Positions 23,702-31,205 of a DNA stretch of 45,775 nucleotides are shown here, in pieces. Below the pieces are notes generated by a model. That model had not been told where the DNA came from, did not search any database, and worked only from the letters and a program-made list of their open reading frames with translations. Both the position numbers and the translations under genes were made by a program. This DNA comes from Candidatus Binatota bacterium (GTDB lineage: Bacteria; Desulfobacterota; Binatia; UBA1149), in NCBI GenBank assembly GCA_012960245.1, contig DUBO01000004.1, positions 1 to 45,775 on the forward strand, written 5' to 3'. Numbering within the stretch: position 1 is the stretch's first letter; every line of letters begins with the position of its first letter.

Positions 23702-24448
23702 TCAACGCCCGGCCAACTGGTGAATCCGTTGACCGTCGTAGTCCACGGTCACCAGCTCGAGCCCGCGCGAGGGAGCGGTTCTGCCGGCGCGTACGCGATC
23801 TCCGTGCTCGAGCAGGCGCTCGAACTCGGCGACCTCCATATCACCCAACGCGGTGTCGACCATGCTGCCAACCATCACCCTGACCATGTTGCGCAGGAAG
23901 GCGTTGCCCCGCACCTCGTACTTGAACAGCCCCGCCTCTTCGCTCCAACTGCTGCTGAAGATGCGGCGCATGGTGCTCTCGGACCCGCAGTCACTGGAAC
24001 GAAAGGCGGCAAAATCATGCGTACCCTCCAACATCGCGGCCAGCCGCGAGAGCAGCTCAAGGTCCAGCCCCGGCACCACGTGCCAGGCACGGTCGGCCTG
24101 CAGCGGTGAATCGGGGCGGCCGGCCACCAGCGTGTAGCGATACAGCCGTCCGGTGGCCTCGCGCCTGGGGTCAAAGCCGGCGTGGGCATCTCGCAGGTCG
24201 CGCAGCGACATCGCCCTGGGCGTGAGTCCGTTCAACTTGCCCTGCAGGCGGTAAAGATCGGTGTCTGCCGCGACGTCAAAGGCCGCCACCTGGCCGCTGG
24301 CGTGCACGCCGGAATCGGTACGACCGGCACCCTCCACCCGGCAGGGTCTCCCGGTGGCCGTAGCCAGCGCCTGCTCCAAGGCCCCCTGCACGGTGGCCAG
24401 GTCGGGTTGCACCTGCCAGCCGGCGAACGCGCCGCCGTGGTACTCCAC
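23702..24448 (-). CDS. truA: tRNA pseudouridine(38-40) synthase
   Basis: Isomerises uridines 38-40 in tRNA anticodon arms. YHGGAFAGWQVQPDLATVQG, the catalytic GAGRTDSGVHASGQVA (Asp45 from this start), LYRYTL and RNMVRVMVGSMVDTALG are clear. The GTG start given here would remove the first beta strand. The frame stays open upstream and reads RRARCLV just before it, as in other TruA proteins. A CTG at 24518-24520, overlapping the leuA stop and preceded by GAGGGAG at 8 bp, is a good alternative start (272 residues). It is probably translationally coupled to leuA. Confidence 0.93.
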   Translation of the reverse strand: MEYHGGAFAGWQVQPDLATVQGALEQALATATGRPCRVEGAGRTDSGVHASGQVAAFDVAADTDLYRLQGKLNGLTPRAMSLRDLRDAHAGFDPRREATGRLYRYTLVAGRPDSPLQADRAWHVVPGLDLELLSRLAAMLEGTHDFAAFRSSDCGSESTMRRIFSSSWSEEAGLFKYEVRGNAFLRNMVRVMVGSMVDTALGDMEVAEFERLLEHGDRVRAGRTAPSRGLELVTVDYDGQRIHQLAGR

Positions 24449-24516
24449 GAGGCAACGCGCCCGCCTTGAGTCGGCGCCGTTGGATAGTTGCGCTTCGTCG
24501 TTTGAAGCCGAGTCGC

Positions 24517-26067
24517 TCAGGGGCCCGTCTCCCTCGGCCCGGTGCCCACCCGCCTGGCCGCTGCCTGCAAGCGATTGAGCGCGTCAACAAACGCGAGCGC
24601 GGAGGCCATGATGATGTCGGTGTGCGAGCCGTGGCCACGCACCACGAGGTCGTCCTGGCGTACCAGGCAGGTCACTTCGCCAATGGCATCCGTGCCGCCG
24701 GTGATACCCTTGACCTGGTAGCTCTCCAGGCGCGGCGACAAGCCGGTGGCCTTTTTGATCGCAGCAAAGCAAGCGTCAACAGCACCGTCTCCACCCGAAT
24801 CGGCCGAGCGTAACTCGCCGTTGACCAGCACGCGTAGCTGGGCCGAAGGCTCACCACCCAGCGAGGACGACACCGCCAGGTCCTTGAGTTCGAAGGCTCC
24901 CTCCACCTCGGAGTCGTCGGCGACCAGCGTGTAGAGATCCTCGTCGTAGACTTCCTTCTTCTTGTCGGCCAGGGCCTTGAAGCGAACGAACACGTCGCTG
25001 AAGTCGATGTGCTCGAGGTTCACGCCCAGGGTCTTGAGGCGATCAGCCAGCGCGGCGCGGCCCGAGTGCTTGCCCAGCACCAGGGCGGTGCTCACCCGGC
25101 CCACCGACTGCGGTGTCATGATCTCGTAGGTGAGCTTGTTCTTGAGCACGCCGTCCTGGTGTATACCGGCCTCGTGGGCAAAAGCGTTGTCGCCCACGAT
25201 GGGCTTGGTAGGAGAAATCGTCACGCCTATGGTGCGCGCCAGCAGTTGGCTGCAGGGGTAGATCTGCTCGGTGTTTACGCGGGTGTCGACGCCGTAGTGA
25301 TCGGCGCGGGTCTTGAGCACCATCACGACTTCTTCGAGCGAGGTGTTGCCCGCCCTCTCGCCTATGCCGTTCAGCGTGCACTCCACCTGCCTCGCACCGC
25401 CCTCCACGGCAGCCAAGGTGTTGGCCACCGCCATTCCGAGGTCGTTGTGGCAGTGTGCGCTCCACACGACATCGCCGCCTCCCTCGGTGTTGGCCCCCAG
25501 GAAAGTAAACAACTCACGCGTTCGTTCGGGCACCGCGTAGCCGGTGGTGTCGGGCACGTTGCACACAGTGGCGCCCGCGGCTATTGCCGCCGAAAAAACC
25601 TCGCAGAGGTAGTCTCGATCGCTGCGCGAAGCGTCCTCGGCCGAGAACTCCACGTGGTCCACGTACTGCTTCACCCGCTCAACGGCCCAGGCGGCGGCGT
25701 CCACCACCTCTGCGCGGCTCATGCCCAGCTTGTACTCCAGGTGCAGGTCGGATGTGGCGATAAAAATATGTATCCCCGGGCGCGCGGCTCCCTCTACAGA
25801 GCGGAGGGCATCGTCCAGGTCTTTCTCGGCGGGACGGGACAGGCTGAGCACCACGGGCTCTCTCACCGTCGCCGATACTTTTTTTACTGCCTCGAAATCG
25901 CCAGGCGACGCGGCCGCGAAACCGGCCTCGATGACATCGACCCCCAGGGCCTCGAGTTGCAGCGCTATGGCCACCTTTTCCTCGGTGTTCATGGTGCAGC
26001 CGGGCGATTGCTCACCGTCCCTCAGCGTGGTGTCGAATACTCTTACCCAGTCCTTATCTTTTTCCAT
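24517..26067 (-). CDS. leuA: 2-isopropylmalate synthase
   Basis: A 516-residue enzyme condensing acetyl-CoA with 2-ketoisovalerate, the first committed step of leucine synthesis. [14 protein letters not shown] (about residues 10-23) and the metal-binding AHCHNDLG (His205, His207) mark the catalytic TIM barrel; [15 protein letters not shown] follows. The C-terminal third is the leucine-binding regulatory domain ([18 protein letters not shown]). It is therefore probably feedback-inhibited as well as regulated by the attenuator-like leader upstream (26133-26341). The start follows a purine-rich stretch (GAACAGGAAGCAAGACG). Its stop overlaps a possible CTG start of truA. Other leucine genes (leuB, leuC, leuD) are not in the window. 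Confidence 0.96.
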
Positions 26068-26132
26068 CGTCTTGCTTCCTGTTCGTCATCGACGGGATAC
26101 TATCGAGCCGCGGCAGCCTATATACCCGCCAT

Positions 26133-26169
26133 AAACAAAAAGGGCCGCGGGTTATGCCCACGGCCCTTT
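26133..26169 (-). terminator. Intrinsic terminator in the leuA leader
   Basis: On the minus strand AAAGGGCCGTGGG (26169-26157) pairs over 13 bp (one U-G) with CCCGCGGCCCTTT (26151-26139). The loop is CATAA and TTTTTGTTT closes the element. It lies upstream of leuA, not after a gene, and 55 bp after a Leu-rich leader ORF. This is the expected place for an attenuator. Confidence 0.85.
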
Positions 26170-26252
26170 CATTGGCGCCACGAGCGTTACGTCCCGCCCG
26201 TGGCCCGGTCATCGCGGTGTATACCTACACCACCGCCGAACCCACGGACGGG
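26139..26252 (-). promoter_or_regulatory. Attenuator: alternative RNA pairings before leuA
   Basis: Segment 1, CCCGTCCGTGG (26252-26242, inside the leader ORF), pairs over 11 bp with segment 2, CCACGGGCGGG (26203-26193, one G-U). Segment 2 can instead pair with segment 3, the 5' arm of the terminator (CCACGG with CCGTGG at 26163-26158). Segment 2 extended upstream (26206-26197) can also pair with segment 4 (9 of 10 positions). A ribosome stalled on the Leu codons would cover segment 1, free segment 2 and disrupt the terminator. This is inferred from the sequence and not folded computationally. Confidence 0.7.
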
Positions 26253-26302
26253 CTTCTAAGCAGTAGCTCGGCTAGAAACGTATTTTTTACGCTGCTCCAC
26301 AT
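26225..26302 (-). CDS. Putative leucine leader peptide
   Basis: A 25-codon ORF, ATG at 26302 and TAG at 26225-26227. Residues 10-15 are L-A-E-L-L-L with codons CTA, GCC, GAG, CTA, CTG, CTT; three of the four Leu codons are CTA or CTT, which are uncommon in the surrounding genes (mostly CTG and CTC). It ends with Val-Val (GTG GTG). It is followed by an intrinsic terminator and then leuA. No strong Shine-Dalgarno is visible, and the predicted transcription start is only a few bases before the ATG. The role is inferred from position, composition and RNA pairing; there is no homology evidence for so short a peptide. Confidence 0.7.
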   Translation of the reverse strand: MWSSVKNTFLAELLLRSPSVGSAVV

Positions 26303-26311
26303 GACTCACTA

Positions 26312-26341
26312 ACTGTAGCGCCCCCGCGCCAGCACTGTCAA
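26312..26341 (-). promoter_or_regulatory. Promoter of the leuA leader
   Basis: On the minus strand a perfect -35 TTGACA (26336-26341) is followed after 18 bp by TACAGT (26312-26317), which matches the -10 consensus at 4 of 6 positions. The transcript would start near 26305, within about 5 nt of the leader-peptide ATG. Confidence 0.65.
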
Positions 26342-26369
26342 GCAGAAGCACTGCCAGGCGTAGGCACCA

Positions 26370-27182
26370 TCAGCCGCCCTCGCTCGGCCAGGCGGCGTCC
26401 TCGTCGCCAACGTCACGATCTGCGTCATCGTCGTCGTCCACGGCCGGCGGCGGAAGTCCCCTGGCCTTTTTCCACGCCCAGGTGGCAGGCCCCGAGAGCA
26501 CGTAAACCGTCATGAACAGGAATATCACGAGCTCATAGCGCGCGATCACCAACTGCAACGCGAGTATGGTAGCCACCAGCAGCCACAGCGGCTGCCGGCG
26601 GTCAAAGCGCAGTTGCTTGAAACTGGCGTAGGCCACGTTGCTCACCATGAGCAGGGCCAGCATGTAGGTGAGCAGCAACAGGGCAACCTGCTTGTCGGGC
26701 AGACCCGAGCGCCCGAGGTACTTGTACATCAGCACCACCGAGACCAGTGTCAGCGCAGCGGCGGGCACCGGCAGGCCGGTAAAGGCAGCGGGCGACGACT
26801 CGTCGGTGGAGATATTGAAGCGCGCAAGCCTGATGGCCGCGCAGATTATAAAAAGCGCGATGGCCAGCCAGCCCCAGGCCCCCCAGGGCATCAAGGCCCA
26901 GCGGTAGATGAGCAGGCCGGAGGCGACGCCGAAAGACACGAGGTCGCAAAGCGAGTCGTACTCCACGCCGAAACGGCTCGCGGTGTTGGTCAGGCGGGCG
27001 ATGCGCCCGTCGAGTACGTCGAACACCGCAGCCACGACAATGGCCAGGGCCGCGTTCACGTACTGGCCCTCCATGGTCTGTACTATGGAAAATATTCCGC
27101 AGAACAGGCCGGCCGAGGTGGCCAGGTTGGGTAAAAGGTAAACGCCCCGGCGGGGTTCGCCACGGCCCTTGAGCAGCGACAT
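26370..27182 (-). CDS. pssA: CDP-diacylglycerol-serine O-phosphatidyltransferase
   Basis: A 270-residue membrane enzyme making phosphatidylserine from CDP-diacylglycerol and serine. The CDP-alcohol phosphotransferase signature is complete: Asp55, Asp58-Gly59, Ala62-Arg63, Gly72, Asp76 and Asp80 (FDVLDGRIARLTNTASRFGV onward). Several hydrophobic segments follow, and the C-terminus is acidic (DDDDDADRDVGDEDAA). The ATG at 27182 begins the family N-terminus MSLLKGRGEPRRGVYLLPN; the longer frame to 27404 overlaps psd and is rejected. It lies 35 bp after psd, so phosphatidylethanolamine synthesis is encoded as a pair. Confidence 0.94.
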   Translation of the reverse strand: MSLLKGRGEPRRGVYLLPNLATSAGLFCGIFSIVQTMEGQYVNAALAIVVAAVFDVLDGRIARLTNTASRFGVEYDSLCDLVSFGVASGLLIYRWALMPWGAWGWLAIALFIICAAIRLARFNISTDESSPAAFTGLPVPAAALTLVSVVLMYKYLGRSGLPDKQVALLLLTYMLALLMVSNVAYASFKQLRFDRRQPLWLLVATILALQLVIARYELVIFLFMTVYVLSGPATWAWKKARGLPPPAVDDDDDADRDVGDEDAAWPSEGG

Positions 27183-27217
27183 GCGCCCGTCGCCGCGTCC
27201 CCCGGTCTCGCGCCGGC

Positions 27218-27910
27218 TCACGCGCTCAGCCTCGCCAGGGCCGTGGCACCAGCCTGGACTCTCTGTCCTGCGCTCACCAGCACCTCGATCCCGGGCGGAA
27301 GGTAGACGTCGACCCGCGAGCTGAACATGATCAGGCCGTAGCGCTCGCCACGCCCCAGGGTCTCTCCCTCTTTCACGCGGCAGATGATGCGACGCGCCAG
27401 CCAACCGGCCACTTGCACCACGGCTATGCGCAGCCCGCTTTCCCCGGAACCGACAGCCGCGGTTGATGCGGCGCCGGTCGCTGAAGCATCCAGCACGATG
27501 GTGTTGTTTTCGTTGCCGTCGGAAGCGTCTTCGCGAAAAGCGGCCCTGAAACTCCCGGCCTTGTGCTCCACTTCACTAACCGTGCCCGGCATGGGGCTGC
27601 GATTTATGTGGACGTCCAACGGCGACATGAAGATCGAAACGCGGCGGGTGGCCCCGGGCACAAGCCGGTGGCCTCCTTCGACCTCGCCCACAAAAACCAC
27701 GCGACCGTCTGCCGGTGCGAGAAGGGTCGATTCGTCTCCCTCGGGCGTGCGTTCAGGGTCGCGAAAGAAAAGCAGCGTGCCCGTTGCCAATAACAGGAAC
27801 ACCCAGCCCACAGCCTGCCAGGACGGCCAGTACAAAGACAGTCCGAGCAGCGCTAGCCCAGCAGCGGCGGGTACGCCAGCTACCCGGTATCCTTCACTCG
27901 CAAACTTCAC
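27218..27910 (-). CDS. psd: Phosphatidylserine decarboxylase (short PSD-A type)
   Basis: A 230-residue pyruvoyl-dependent decarboxylase forming phosphatidylethanolamine. Two hydrophobic segments lie near residues 12-48. APADGR (Asp68), SPLDVHINRSPMPG (His101) and a C-terminal RVDVYLPPG fit the short form. The self-cleavage site, normally Gly-Ser before R-V-D, here reads MFSSRVDVYLP: Ser197 replaces the usual Gly and Ser198 would be the pyruvoyl precursor. An Ala/Ser/Gly-rich insertion (about residues 142-158) lies before the second half. It is placed between ilvC (24 bp upstream) and pssA. Confidence 0.92.
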   Translation of the reverse strand: MKFASEGYRVAGVPAAAGLALLGLSLYWPSWQAVGWVFLLLATGTLLFFRDPERTPEGDESTLLAPADGRVVFVGEVEGGHRLVPGATRRVSIFMSPLDVHINRSPMPGTVSEVEHKAGSFRAAFREDASDGNENNTIVLDASATGAASTAAVGSGESGLRIAVVQVAGWLARRIICRVKEGETLGRGERYGLIMFSSRVDVYLPPGIEVLVSAGQRVQAGATALARLSA

Positions 27911-27934
27911 GACCCGTGGACGGCTCGACGTCGG

Positions 27935-28951
27935 TCAGTTGACCGACTTGTCCACGAGGCGTTCGTCGGTCAGCCAGGGCATGAGAGACCTCAACTCCTC
28001 GCCAACCTTTTCGACAGGGTGGTTCTCTCCTTCCCGGCGCAGCTCCTTGAAGTGGGGCAGACCGCACTTGTACTCGGTGATCCACTCGTCGGCGAAGTCG
28101 CCCGACTGTATTTCTTCGAGTATCTTCTTCATCGCGGCGCGCGTGCCGTCGCCCACCACGCGGGTGCCGCGGGTGAGATCGCCATACTCAGCCGTATTGC
28201 TGATCGAGTAGCGCATGTTGGCAATGCCGCCTTCGTAGATCAGGTCTACGATGAGCTTGACCTCGTGCACGCACTCGAAGTAGGCCATCTCGGGCGCGTA
28301 ACCCGCTTCTACCAGGGTCTCAAAGCCCGCGCGGATGAGCTCGGTGAGTCCACCGCACAACACCGCCTGCTCGCCGAAGAGATCGGTCTCGGTCTCCTCC
28401 CTGAAGGAGGTGCCGATAACAGCCGCGCGTGTTCCGCCTATGCCGTCGGCGTAGGCCAGGCCCACCGCCTCGGTGTCACCCGACGGGTCCTGGGCCACTG
28501 CCAGCAGGCAGGGCACGCCCATACCCTTGACGTACATGCTTCTCACCAGGTGCCCGGGGCCCTTGGGAGCTACCATGAACACGCCGGTCCCGGCCAACGG
28601 CTTTATCTTGCCGAAGTGAACGTTAAAACCGTGCGCAAAGGCGAGGTAGCTGCCCGGCTTGAGATTGGGTTCGACGTCTTCGTAATAAACTTCGGCAGCC
28701 AGCTCATCGGGCAGCAGCATCATTACCACGTCGGCACGACCAACGGCGTCAGCTATCGAGGCCACCTCGAGGCCCGCTCCCTCGGCCTTGGCCACCGACG
28801 AGCTGCCTTCTCTCAGGCCCACGACGACGTTGACGCCGCTCTCCTTGAGGTTGAGCGCGTGCGCGTGCCCCTGGCTGCCGTAGCCCAGTACGGCCACGGT
28901 CTTGTTTTTCAAAAGGCCAGCGTCGGCCTCTTCGCGGGTGTAAATCTTCAT
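27935..28951 (-). CDS. ilvC: Ketol-acid reductoisomerase
   Basis: A 338-residue class I enzyme catalysing the second common step of valine and isoleucine synthesis, using NADPH and Mg2+. [20 protein letters not shown] (about residues 18-37) is the dinucleotide-binding loop. [27 protein letters not shown] and a C-terminal knotted domain with [15 protein letters not shown] follow. Its ATG overlaps the ilvH stop by 4 bp (ATGA). It belongs to the ilvD-ilvH-ilvC-psd-pssA set. Confidence 0.97.
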
Positions 28952-29496
28952 GCAGCTTTCTCCGTACTCTTATTTTTCTTAGCCTTAGGGGCTCCCACGG
29001 TAAGCAGGCGCCCTCCCCTGAACAGCGCCGCCTTGCCGGTGCGCGCCACTTCCTTGATTCCAAGGGGAGCGAGCATCGTCATGATGGCGGCTATCTTCTC
29101 GTCGTCGCCGGTGACCTCGACCATGCACTCGGTAGGCCCGACGTCCACGATGCGGGCCCTGAATATGTCGGCTATGCCCACCAGTTCCAAGCGCGAGCGG
29201 GCATCGACGGCCACCTTGATCAGCGCGAGCTCGCGTTCAACGTGCTCCGCCTCGCTGTAGTCGACAACCTTGATGACCGACACCAGCTTGTTGAGCTGCT
29301 TGTTGATCTGCTCCACGATCTCGGCGTCGCCGGTGGTGGTGAGCGTAATGCGCGACACCGACGGATCCAACGTTTCGGCCACCGCCAGGCTCGATATGTT
29401 GTAACCACGGCCACTGAACAAGCCCGCCACGCGCGATAACACGCCGAACTCGTTCTCGACCAGTATGGATATTATGTAGCTTCCCTTCGTTGCCAT
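28948..29496 (-). CDS. ilvH: Acetolactate synthase small (regulatory) subunit
   Basis: A 182-residue regulatory subunit that binds valine and activates the large subunit. An N-terminal ACT domain (about residues 5-78) contains [20 protein letters not shown] and [14 protein letters not shown], and the C-terminal domain includes [20 protein letters not shown]. The ATG at 29496 follows AGGAGTGGAGG; the longer frame is not needed. It overlaps ilvC. The catalytic large subunit ilvB, usually directly upstream, is absent: ilvD occupies that place, 17 bp away. Confidence 0.96.
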
Positions 29497-29513
29497 GCTC
29501 ACACCTCCACTCC

Positions 29514-31205
29514 TTAACCTGTGACCGCGCCCCGCGCGGCACTCGAAACCAGCCTCGAGTACTTCCACAGAACGCCGCTCGTGTACTTAGGCGCCGGTTC
29601 CGTCCAGGCGGCCTTTCGCCGTTTGAGCTCGCCGTCGTCCACTGCCAGTTCGAGCAGCAGGCGGTCGGCGTCTATGGTGATAGTATCGCCCTCTTCGACC
29701 AGCGCGATGGGGCCGCCGACCTGGGCCTCGGGCGCCACGTGCCCCACGACCATGCCGTAGGTGCCGCCCGAGAAGCGTCCGTCGGTTATAAAGCCCACGC
29801 TGTCACCCAGCCCCTTACCGATGATGGCGCTGGTGGGCGAGAGCATTTCGCGCATGCCGGGACCGCCGCTGGGGCCCTCGTAGCGAATGACGAGCACGTC
29901 GCCCTCGGCGATGCGGTCGCCCATTATAGCGTCCATGCAGTCCTCTTCGGAGTTGAACACGCGCGCTGGGCCGGTTATCGCGCGATTCTTGAGCCCGCTG
30001 ATCTTGGCCACGCAGCCCTCGGGGGCAAGATTGCCCTTGAGCATAGCGAGGTGGCCCTGCGTGTAGACCGGTGAGTCGAAGGGGCGCACGACTTCCTGCC
30101 CCGCCGGCGGCTGGTCGGCCACGAGCTTGAGGTTGTCGGCCACCGTACCACCGGTGATGGTCATACAGTCTCCGTCTAACAAGCCCTGCACGAGCAGCAT
30201 CTTCATGACCAGGGGTATGCCGCCAACGTCGTGCAGATCGGTGGCAACATAAGGCCCCGACGGCTTCATGTCGGCCAGCACGGGCACGCGCACGCGTATG
30301 TCTTCGAAGTCTTCCATCGTCAGCTCTACCTCGGCCGCGTGGGCGATGGCGAGCAGGTGCAGGACGGCGTTGGTCGAACCGCCCACGGCCATGACAACGG
30401 CGATGGCGTTGTTAAACGCGGCTCGGGTGAGTATGTCGCGGGGCTTCAGGTCGTCGGCGACCAGGCGCATAAGCACCCTGCCGCTTTCGGCGGCACTGTC
30501 GCGCTTCTCGTCGTCCTCGGCTGCCATGGTAGAGGAGCCGGGCAGGCTCATGCCCAGCGCCTCGAAGGCGGAGCTCATCGTGTTGGCCGTGTACATGCCG
30601 CCGCAGGCGCCGCGACCGGGACAGGCGCGCTTCTCGATCTCGCAGAAAGCCTCGCGGCTTATTCGGCCCGCGCCCAGCTCACCCACCGCCTCGAAAGCGC
30701 TCACGATGGTGAGATCCTTGCCGTCGTAGTGGCCGGCCTTGATGGTGCCGCCGTAGACAAAAACCGATGGCAGGTTGAGCCTTGCCATGGCTATCATGGC
30801 GCCGGGCATGTTCTTGTCACAGCCACCCACGGCCAGCAGGCCGTCCATGCTCTGGGCCCGACAAACGGTCTCGATCGAGTCGGCGATGACCTCGCGACTG
30901 ACCAACGAGCACTTCATGCCCTCGGTACCCATGGAAATGCCGTCGCTGACGGTGATGGTGCCAAAGGTCTGGGGCATGCCGCCTTCTTCGCGAACCGCCC
31001 CCGCCGCGGCCAGCGAGAGGTCGCCCAGCCCGGCATTGCAGGGCGTTATGTCGCTCTGGCCGTTGGCGATAGCGACTATGGACTTACTGAAATCGCCGTC
31101 GCCGAAGCCCACCGCCCGCAGCATGGCTCGGTTGGGCGCGCGGTTGTCCCCCTCGGTGACCGCTCGACTGTGCCGGTTGGGGGCCTTTTTGTCGTTGCTT
31201 GTCAT
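29514..31205 (-). CDS. ilvD: Dihydroxy-acid dehydratase
   Basis: A 563-residue iron-sulfur enzyme making the 2-keto acids of valine and isoleucine. The cluster cysteines are visible in [27 protein letters not shown] and [35 protein letters not shown] and [20 protein letters not shown] mark the C-terminal active site. It is the first gene of the ilvD-ilvH-ilvC group, 17 bp before ilvH. Its product ketoisovalerate feeds both LeuA and PanB, which are also encoded in this window. Confidence 0.97.

Follow-up and report, generated by a model that had tools for sequence, protein, structure and literature searches.

The window analysed here, a 45.8-kb stretch of DNA from a genome assembly of 2.82 Mb, carries on its minus strand the gene order ilvD, ilvN, ilvC, psd, pssA, leader, leuA and truA. 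Profile matches back leuA, pssA, ilvC, ilvD and ilvN in this order, and psd and truA were named from their translations. The gene proposed to be controlled, leuA (24517..26067, minus strand), encodes 2-isopropylmalate synthase; it matches TIGR00973 with 632 bits (cut-off 598.7), and its product carries the Pfam domains HMGL-like and LeuA_dimer. The pssA gene, which adjoins the leader upstream (26370..27404, minus strand), matches TIGR00473 with 135.9 bits (cut-off 107), and the Pfam domain CDP-OH_P_transf was found in pssA of the window, L057 and L058. Further upstream, ilvD and ilvN are adjacent and without ilvB (28948-31205), and the acetolactate synthase large subunit has its sole above-cut-off match elsewhere, on a different contig (G000:C36:60232-61914). 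The leuA product shares 95% identity with its counterpart in bacterium UBP10_UBA1149 (L033), and Candidatus Binatota MAGs are among the named relatives that come next (L034, 69% identity); UBP10 is equated with Binatota in excerpts of PMC8262859. Judged by its leuA relatives, the genome appears to belong to Binatia (Candidatus Binatota).

All elements of the leader are found on the minus strand between pssA and leuA. A sigma-70-like promoter (26312..26341) consists of TTGACA at 26341-26336, an 18-nt spacer and TACAGT at 26317-26312; its TTGACA box had already been pointed out in a preliminary description of this DNA. It is followed by a leader open reading frame of 25 codons, MWSSVKNTFLAELLLRSPSVGSAVV (26225..26302, with the ATG at 26302 and the stop codon at 26227-26225), which carries L-A-E-L-L-L at residues 10-15, as that description had stated. 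When we filtered for Leu-dense short ORFs (ATG or GTG start, a length of 10-45 codons, 4 or more Leu within 7 codons, and a T-run no more than 220 nt away), this ORF was the only match on either strand of the window. Its start codon lies 9 nt past the -10 box, and the leader mRNA is therefore probably leaderless or nearly so. The putative control codons, CTA GCC GAG CTA CTG CTT (26258..26275), end with the Leu codon CTT at 26260-26258. The choice of CTA, CTA, CTG and CTT had been remarked on as unusual for this neighbourhood, and rightly so: CTA and CTT together make up 27 of the 327 Leu codons in nine neighbouring ORFs.

Five segments, numbered here in the order of transcription, could pair alternately with their neighbours. 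Segment 1 (26238..26252) lies within the ORF, 5 nt past the Leu codons, and its partner is segment 2 (26193..26206), which can pair instead with segment 3 (26174..26187). Segment 3 can in turn pair with segment 4 (26155..26169), the 5' arm of an intrinsic terminator located between the leader ORF and leuA, and segment 5 (26133..26153) comprises the 3' arm of this terminator and its U-tract. The terminator (26170-26138) has 14 pairs and a folding energy of -26.3 kcal/mol; its presence with a T-run had been noted, with 13 pairs instead of 14. The 1:2 helix, earlier described as joining 26252-26242 to 26203-26193, is confirmed and reaches -25.9 kcal/mol when extended. The folding-energy z-score is -4.8 for 26318-26133 and -5.4 for 26256-26133.

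Conservation of the Leu-rich leader in Binatia

We searched 148 genomes of the class for leuA, found a match at 1e-100 in 132 of them, and scanned about 400 nt upstream of each (174 nt in L027, which is limited by a contig end). ORFs with at least 4 Leu in 7 codons were present at 95 of the 132 loci, compared with 189 of 2640 Markov shuffles (7%) and 10 of 132 loci on the reverse strand. With a threshold of at least 5 Leu in 7 codons, the corresponding counts were 65/132, 13/2640 and 2/132. Setting aside 13 pssA ends (4 in family f5 and 9 in f14) and L211 (f5), whose ORF spans a terminator, leaves 81 of the 132 loci with a free-standing ORF of at least 4 Leu in 7 codons. By family, a free-standing leader was found in 3/3 loci of f1, 1/1 of f2, 6/6 of f3, 1/2 of f4, 13/13 of f7, 3/11 of f8, 6/7 of f11, 36/39 of f12, 5/5 of f13, 1/2 of f15 and 6/6 of f16. 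The second f4 locus has LLL, the single f10 locus has LLL only, and the seventh f11 locus is L027.

In the order to which the window belongs, 12 of the 13 genomes gave a leuA locus (G008 gave none), and all 12 loci carry both a Leu-rich leader ORF and a terminator. The last Leu codon is CTT at all 12, three consecutive Leu codons precede segment 1 at 11, and the leader peptide ends in VV at 11. The first two codons of the Leu run vary synonymously, which favours selection on the peptide. Of the 29 loci marked by hand across the class, 26 have CTT as their last Leu codon. Upstream of the ORF, 27 of 51 class representatives have a TTGAC-type promoter, and at 21 of these 27 the start codon lies 6-12 nt past the -10 box, with some -10 matches being poor; such leader mRNAs probably have little or no 5' untranslated region.

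Since the relatives keep both the Leu-rich ORF and the stop signal, leuA is probably switched on under leucine shortage. The comparison of upstream regions, which the preliminary description had proposed as a check, thus bears out its central suggestion of attenuation before leuA: Leu-rich ORF, terminator and alternative pairings are all conserved in relatives. It also bears on an alternative, namely that a plain pssA terminator stands beside an unrelated short ORF, leuA is transcribed from a promoter further downstream and no attenuation occurs. A terminator after pssA is expected anyway, and a single promoter-like match in 6 kb is close to chance (0.6 expected within 24000-30000). However, that match is the only one in the interval and precedes the ORF, and an unrelated ORF does not sit well with the conservation of the Leu run and of the alternative pairings. 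We regard this explanation as very improbable.

A covariance model built from an alignment described below (A2) was used to search 21 genomes. One strong copy (E below 1e-6), each upstream of leuA, was found in 14 of them, and 5 of the 21 gave no match at E 0.1. Four of the weak matches (L225-L228) were inspected, and these have no Leu-run ORF. One of these, L225:1120-1219 on the minus strand, has two tandem terminators resembling 2:3 and 4:5, again without a Leu-run ORF, upstream of an ORF that is acetyltransferase-like by its translation. Outside Binatia, Leu-rich short ORFs followed by terminator-like hairpins and T-runs were seen upstream of leuA in L065 (a Candidatus Uhrbacteria MAG), L091 and L101 (Planctomycetota MAGs) and L093 (a Candidatus Brocadiaceae MAG).

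Pairing of the five segments

The segments were marked by hand in 29 of the 51 representatives (f1-f4, f7, f13, f15, f16 and one f11 locus), all of which have two hairpins 3' of the stop codon, 2:3 and 4:5. The other 22 representatives (14 of f12, 4 of f11, 1 of f10, 2 of f8, and L214) were left out. In a swap test, we compared the duplex energy of segments from the same genome with that of segments combined from different genomes, using one locus for each of 21 genera. Own pairing exceeded cross pairing for 1:2 in 17 of 21 genera (p 1.8e-4), for 2:3 in 15 (p 9e-4), for 3:4 in 16 (p 2.4e-3) and for 4:5 in 21 (p 5e-7), the results for 2:3 and 4:5 being partly circular because these hairpins defined the arms, which is not the case for 1:2 and 3:4. 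The control combinations 2:5, 2:4, 1:4 and 1:5 gave p values of 0.24-0.46 in the same 21 genera. Twenty random draws of genus representatives agreed with the test, the worst p for 3:4 being 0.016. Against shuffles, p was 0.05 or less for 1:2 in 23 of 29 loci and for 3:4 in 26 of 29. Within the order alone (9 genera) the test gave p 0.08 for 1:2, 0.027 for 2:3 and 0.29 for 3:4, and within clades p 0.07 for 1:2 and 0.10 for 3:4. The covariation therefore mostly reflects differences between families.

We also counted pairs in alignment A2, which holds 16 sequences (12 of the order, 3 of f16 and 1 of f15, leaving out L114, L115 and L117); its structures were drawn from the window sequence and are for that reason favoured over slid versions. 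For 2:3 and 4:5 together, 10 pairs had changed on both sides, a number reached in 0 of 500 shuffles. For 1:2 and 3:4 together, the number of paired cells was reached in 0 of 500 shuffles and the covariation score in 4 of 500; 4 pairs had changed on both sides, as in 55 of 500 shuffles. The control 2:5 did not stand above shuffles (86/500 for paired cells, 100/500 for the covariation score), nor did the count of further pair types for 2:3 and 4:5 (447/500) or for 1:2 and 3:4 (231/500). The comparison supports a chain of helices 1:2, 2:3, 3:4 and 4:5, with 3:4 supported least. The putative terminator-preventing pairing 3:4 is nevertheless kept class-wide, although it does not reach significance in the order alone.

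The number of terminators differs between families. In the window's order, only 4:5 carries a U-tract. Among the 14 representatives of f7, f15 and f16, 2:3 was itself scored as a terminator in 11, and 9 were scored as having two terminators. Loci of f12 have a single terminator, whose 5' arm and loop can pair with the part of the ORF past the Leu codons. This pairing was seen in 36 of 36 f12 loci scored (-25 to -41 kcal/mol), with p 0.05 or less against shuffles in 24 of 36, and the swap test among 15 f12 genera was not significant (p 0.13).

We then folded partial transcripts of the window with a ribosome placed on them, its shadow ending 13 nt past the first base of the A-site codon. With no ribosome, or with a stall at CTA or CTG, 9-11 expected pairs of 1:2 and more than 10 of 3:4 were obtained just before segment 5 appears; a stall at CTT gave 4.4 and 8.0. 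With the ribosome at the stop codon, 2:3 had 10.9 expected pairs and 3:4 had 1.4. With another transcript end, the values for 3:4 in the window were 8.1 at the penultimate Leu codon, 1.1 at CTT and 0.7 at the stop codon; the two transcript ends disagree at CTT, and the CTT result thus depends on details. More generally, the effect of ribosome position in silico varies with the footprint, the stalled codon and the transcript end. Among the 29 loci, 3:4 was higher with a stall at the penultimate Leu codon than at the stop codon in 22 and lower in 2; with a stall at the last Leu codon and a 13-nt footprint, 3:4 was gained in 9 and lost in 2. The conserved CTT is left unexplained by the folding model; our guess is that its tRNA, or the RNA itself, may have favoured this codon. 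At equilibrium, 4:5 prevails in all ribosome states as soon as segment 5 has been made in full, and an antiterminator 3:4 must therefore act kinetically.

These data bear on the manner in which termination would be prevented. The preliminary description, which had missed segment 3, identified 1:2 and the terminator correctly; its proposed antiterminator, a pairing of segment 2 with one of the terminator arms (26163-26158 or 26151-26142), found little support, the swap test giving p 0.34 for 2:4 and p 0.24 for 2:5. Such a pairing is what a classical four-segment attenuator would use, in which a stalled ribosome masks segment 1 and either 2:4 or 2:5 then blocks termination. Either pairing can be drawn on paper, and for 2:5 a permutation test is marginal (p 0.028); in the folding, 2:5 also forms transiently (3.2-3.4 expected pairs) with half of segment 5 transcribed and the ribosome at CTG or CTT. 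However, the swap test indicates no coevolution of segment 2 with 4 or 5, the pair counts give none for 2:5, and of the 16 rows of A2, 15 pair column 82 with segment 3 and 10 with segment 5. Moreover, when segment 1 is masked in the folding, segment 2 turns to segment 3, leaving the terminator free to form, and in f7, f15 and f16 it is 2:3 that tends to be a terminator itself. The classical scheme is therefore unlikely in our judgement.

The likely explanation, which we favour instead, is ribosome-mediated transcription attenuation, through which a shortage of leucyl-tRNA would allow leuA to be expressed. Transcription would begin at the promoter at 26341-26312, and the leader ORF would be translated from a start codon a few bases past the 5' end of the RNA. 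With leucine short, the ribosome would stall on the Leu codons that precede segment 1; segment 1 would stay free and 1:2 would form, releasing segment 3, which would capture segment 4 before segment 5 is made and allow the polymerase to enter leuA. With leucine ample, the ribosome would cover segment 1 up to the stop codon, 2:3 and 4:5 would form, and transcription would end. That the Leu codons lie shortly 5' of segment 1 agrees with a stall that leaves this segment free. In most f7, f15 and f16 loci the same switch would govern two successive terminators, because there 2:3 has its own U-tract. We infer both the leucine response and the kinetic capture by 3:4.

It is also conceivable that the element responds to leucine and depends on translation, with the decisive event being something other than 3:4, such as a pause at 1:2, ribosome release or Rho. 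This would accommodate the swap tests, in which 3:4 is the helix with the least support, and the loss of 3:4 to 4:5 at equilibrium; however, 3:4 exceeds shuffles at most loci, as given above, and is kept across families that differ in sequence, and we think such an event improbable as the decisive one. Taken together with the conservation in relatives, the region upstream of leuA is probably a conserved, leucine-responsive attenuator.

pssA ends as candidate leaders

In families f5, f9, f14 and f17, the scan upstream of leuA found no free-standing leader. In these families pssA ends shortly upstream of leuA, with a hairpin and a T-run. The hairpin is of the type CTCCCGYTGGC..GCCGCGGGAG and ends 31-73 nt upstream of the leuA match in 16 genera, a distance from which leuA is probably read through the hairpin.

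We counted Leu codons around the conserved SGP motif at the pssA end and compared them with the rest of the gene seen, parsing 34 of 36 loci (L188 and L195 were left out). In f5, TTA and CTA made up 57 of 114 Leu codons in the pssA end and 28 of 355 in the gene body (p 4e-21), or 29/64 and 17/206 when one locus per genus was taken (p 2e-10). The counts in f14 were 38/67 and 0/172, which are not independent because they come from 9 genomes of one genus; those in f17 were 3/5 and 2/21, and those in f9 were 4/19 and 3/82. Such rare-codon ends (f5, f14 and f17, and more weakly f9) occur among others at L179, L182, L184, L193, L194, L198, L200-L202, L204, L206 and L208. No enrichment was seen in 30 leader-bearing loci with a pssA-like ORF (11/123 and 23/255), and outside Binatia the sole Rokubacteria-type locus parsed, L082, had no TTA or CTA in its pssA-end block. 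We considered whether the pssA end is AT-rich from housing a leuA promoter and rejected this, as the third positions of the other codons are unshifted between tail and body (0.35 and 0.33 in f5; 0.14 and 0.12 in f14).

The complementarity of the pssA tail to the terminator arm reached p 0.05 or less against synonymous shuffles in 3 of 16 genera, and the swap test gave p 0.047. In folding, the tail formed 4.5-11.6 pairs with the arm as long as the 3' arm had yet to be transcribed, and retained at least 4 pairs afterwards in 3 of 16 genera; with the ribosome at the stop codon, the terminator arm of several genera pairs with the spacer as well. The weak complementarity between tail and arm, its retention in few genera and the pairing of the arm with the spacer count against a leader in the pssA tail, and so does the model in PMC1183508, according to which UUA should work poorly as a control codon in E. 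coli. We give about even chances to the wider proposal that attenuation controls leuA throughout Binatia, the leader being either a Leu-rich ORF of its own or, in families lacking such an ORF, the 3' end of pssA, the latter being clearest in f5 and f14. If true, the C-terminal tail of the membrane enzyme PssA would also serve as amino-acid sensor for the gene that follows, and gene ends elsewhere may conceal leader peptides that are invisible to scans for short ORFs.

Relation to known attenuators

At the gathering threshold, Rfam matched only tmRNA and tRNA in the window and nothing in ten leader loci. When E values up to 10 were allowed, ten matches to the leader appeared, all scoring well under their cut-offs, the best being ar35 (24.1 bits, cut-off 45, E 0.011), and Thr_leader scored 13.4 bits (cut-off 55). 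Neither the Rfam family of the enteric leu leader nor the T-box riboswitch gave a covariance-model match in the window, in the leader at E up to 10 or in the ten loci.

Like the leu attenuator of Salmonella and E. coli, the layout has a terminator upstream of leuA and a Leu-rich leader peptide that uses rare Leu codons. In the enteric leader, the control codons lie within segment 1, and stalling masks this segment. The window differs in placing its control codons ahead of segment 1, in having a fifth segment and in its reversed parity. The five-segment layout therefore makes a prediction opposite to that for enteric leu, namely that leuA would be read through when the leader is untranslated. 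The his operon attenuator has six segments forming a long chain of mutually exclusive helices, of which alternate helices form together. The window shares such a chain, with Leu instead of His codons, and its chain begins with the segment that a stalled ribosome would leave free. For the enteric case, PMC1183508 describes how CUA control codons affect leu attenuation.

Two further systems can be compared. The ilv-leu attenuator of Staphylococcus aureus (PMC5794164) shares a Leu-codon leader peptide and a terminator, and its reporter activity is reported to rise when Leu and Ile are limited. It differs in preceding ilvD, in its 26-aa peptide with both Ile and Leu codons, and in a proposed antiterminator that pairs with the poly-U tail. 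The actinobacterial LEU element (PMC1262725) shares an ORF with a run of Leu codons upstream of leuA; it differs in forming a pseudoknot in which the Leu codons pair with the Shine-Dalgarno box, and classical attenuation was judged unlikely for it. Unlike the LEU element, the window has an intrinsic terminator.

Among the literature matches listed, mostly open-access and represented by titles and abstract beginnings, there was no report of attenuation in Binatota, and the main text of PMC8262859, on Binatota, contains no terms for attenuation, leader peptide, leucine or riboswitch. Judged by this literature, the element would be a known principle in a new lineage, with a segment parity that differs from the textbook one. 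Our results would extend amino-acid attenuation to a phylum described as yet uncultured in the title of PMC8262859. The families would represent stages of one switch, with one terminator, with two terminators, with a lost U-tract and, possibly, with the leader inside pssA, so that the evolution of an attenuator may be traceable within Binatia.
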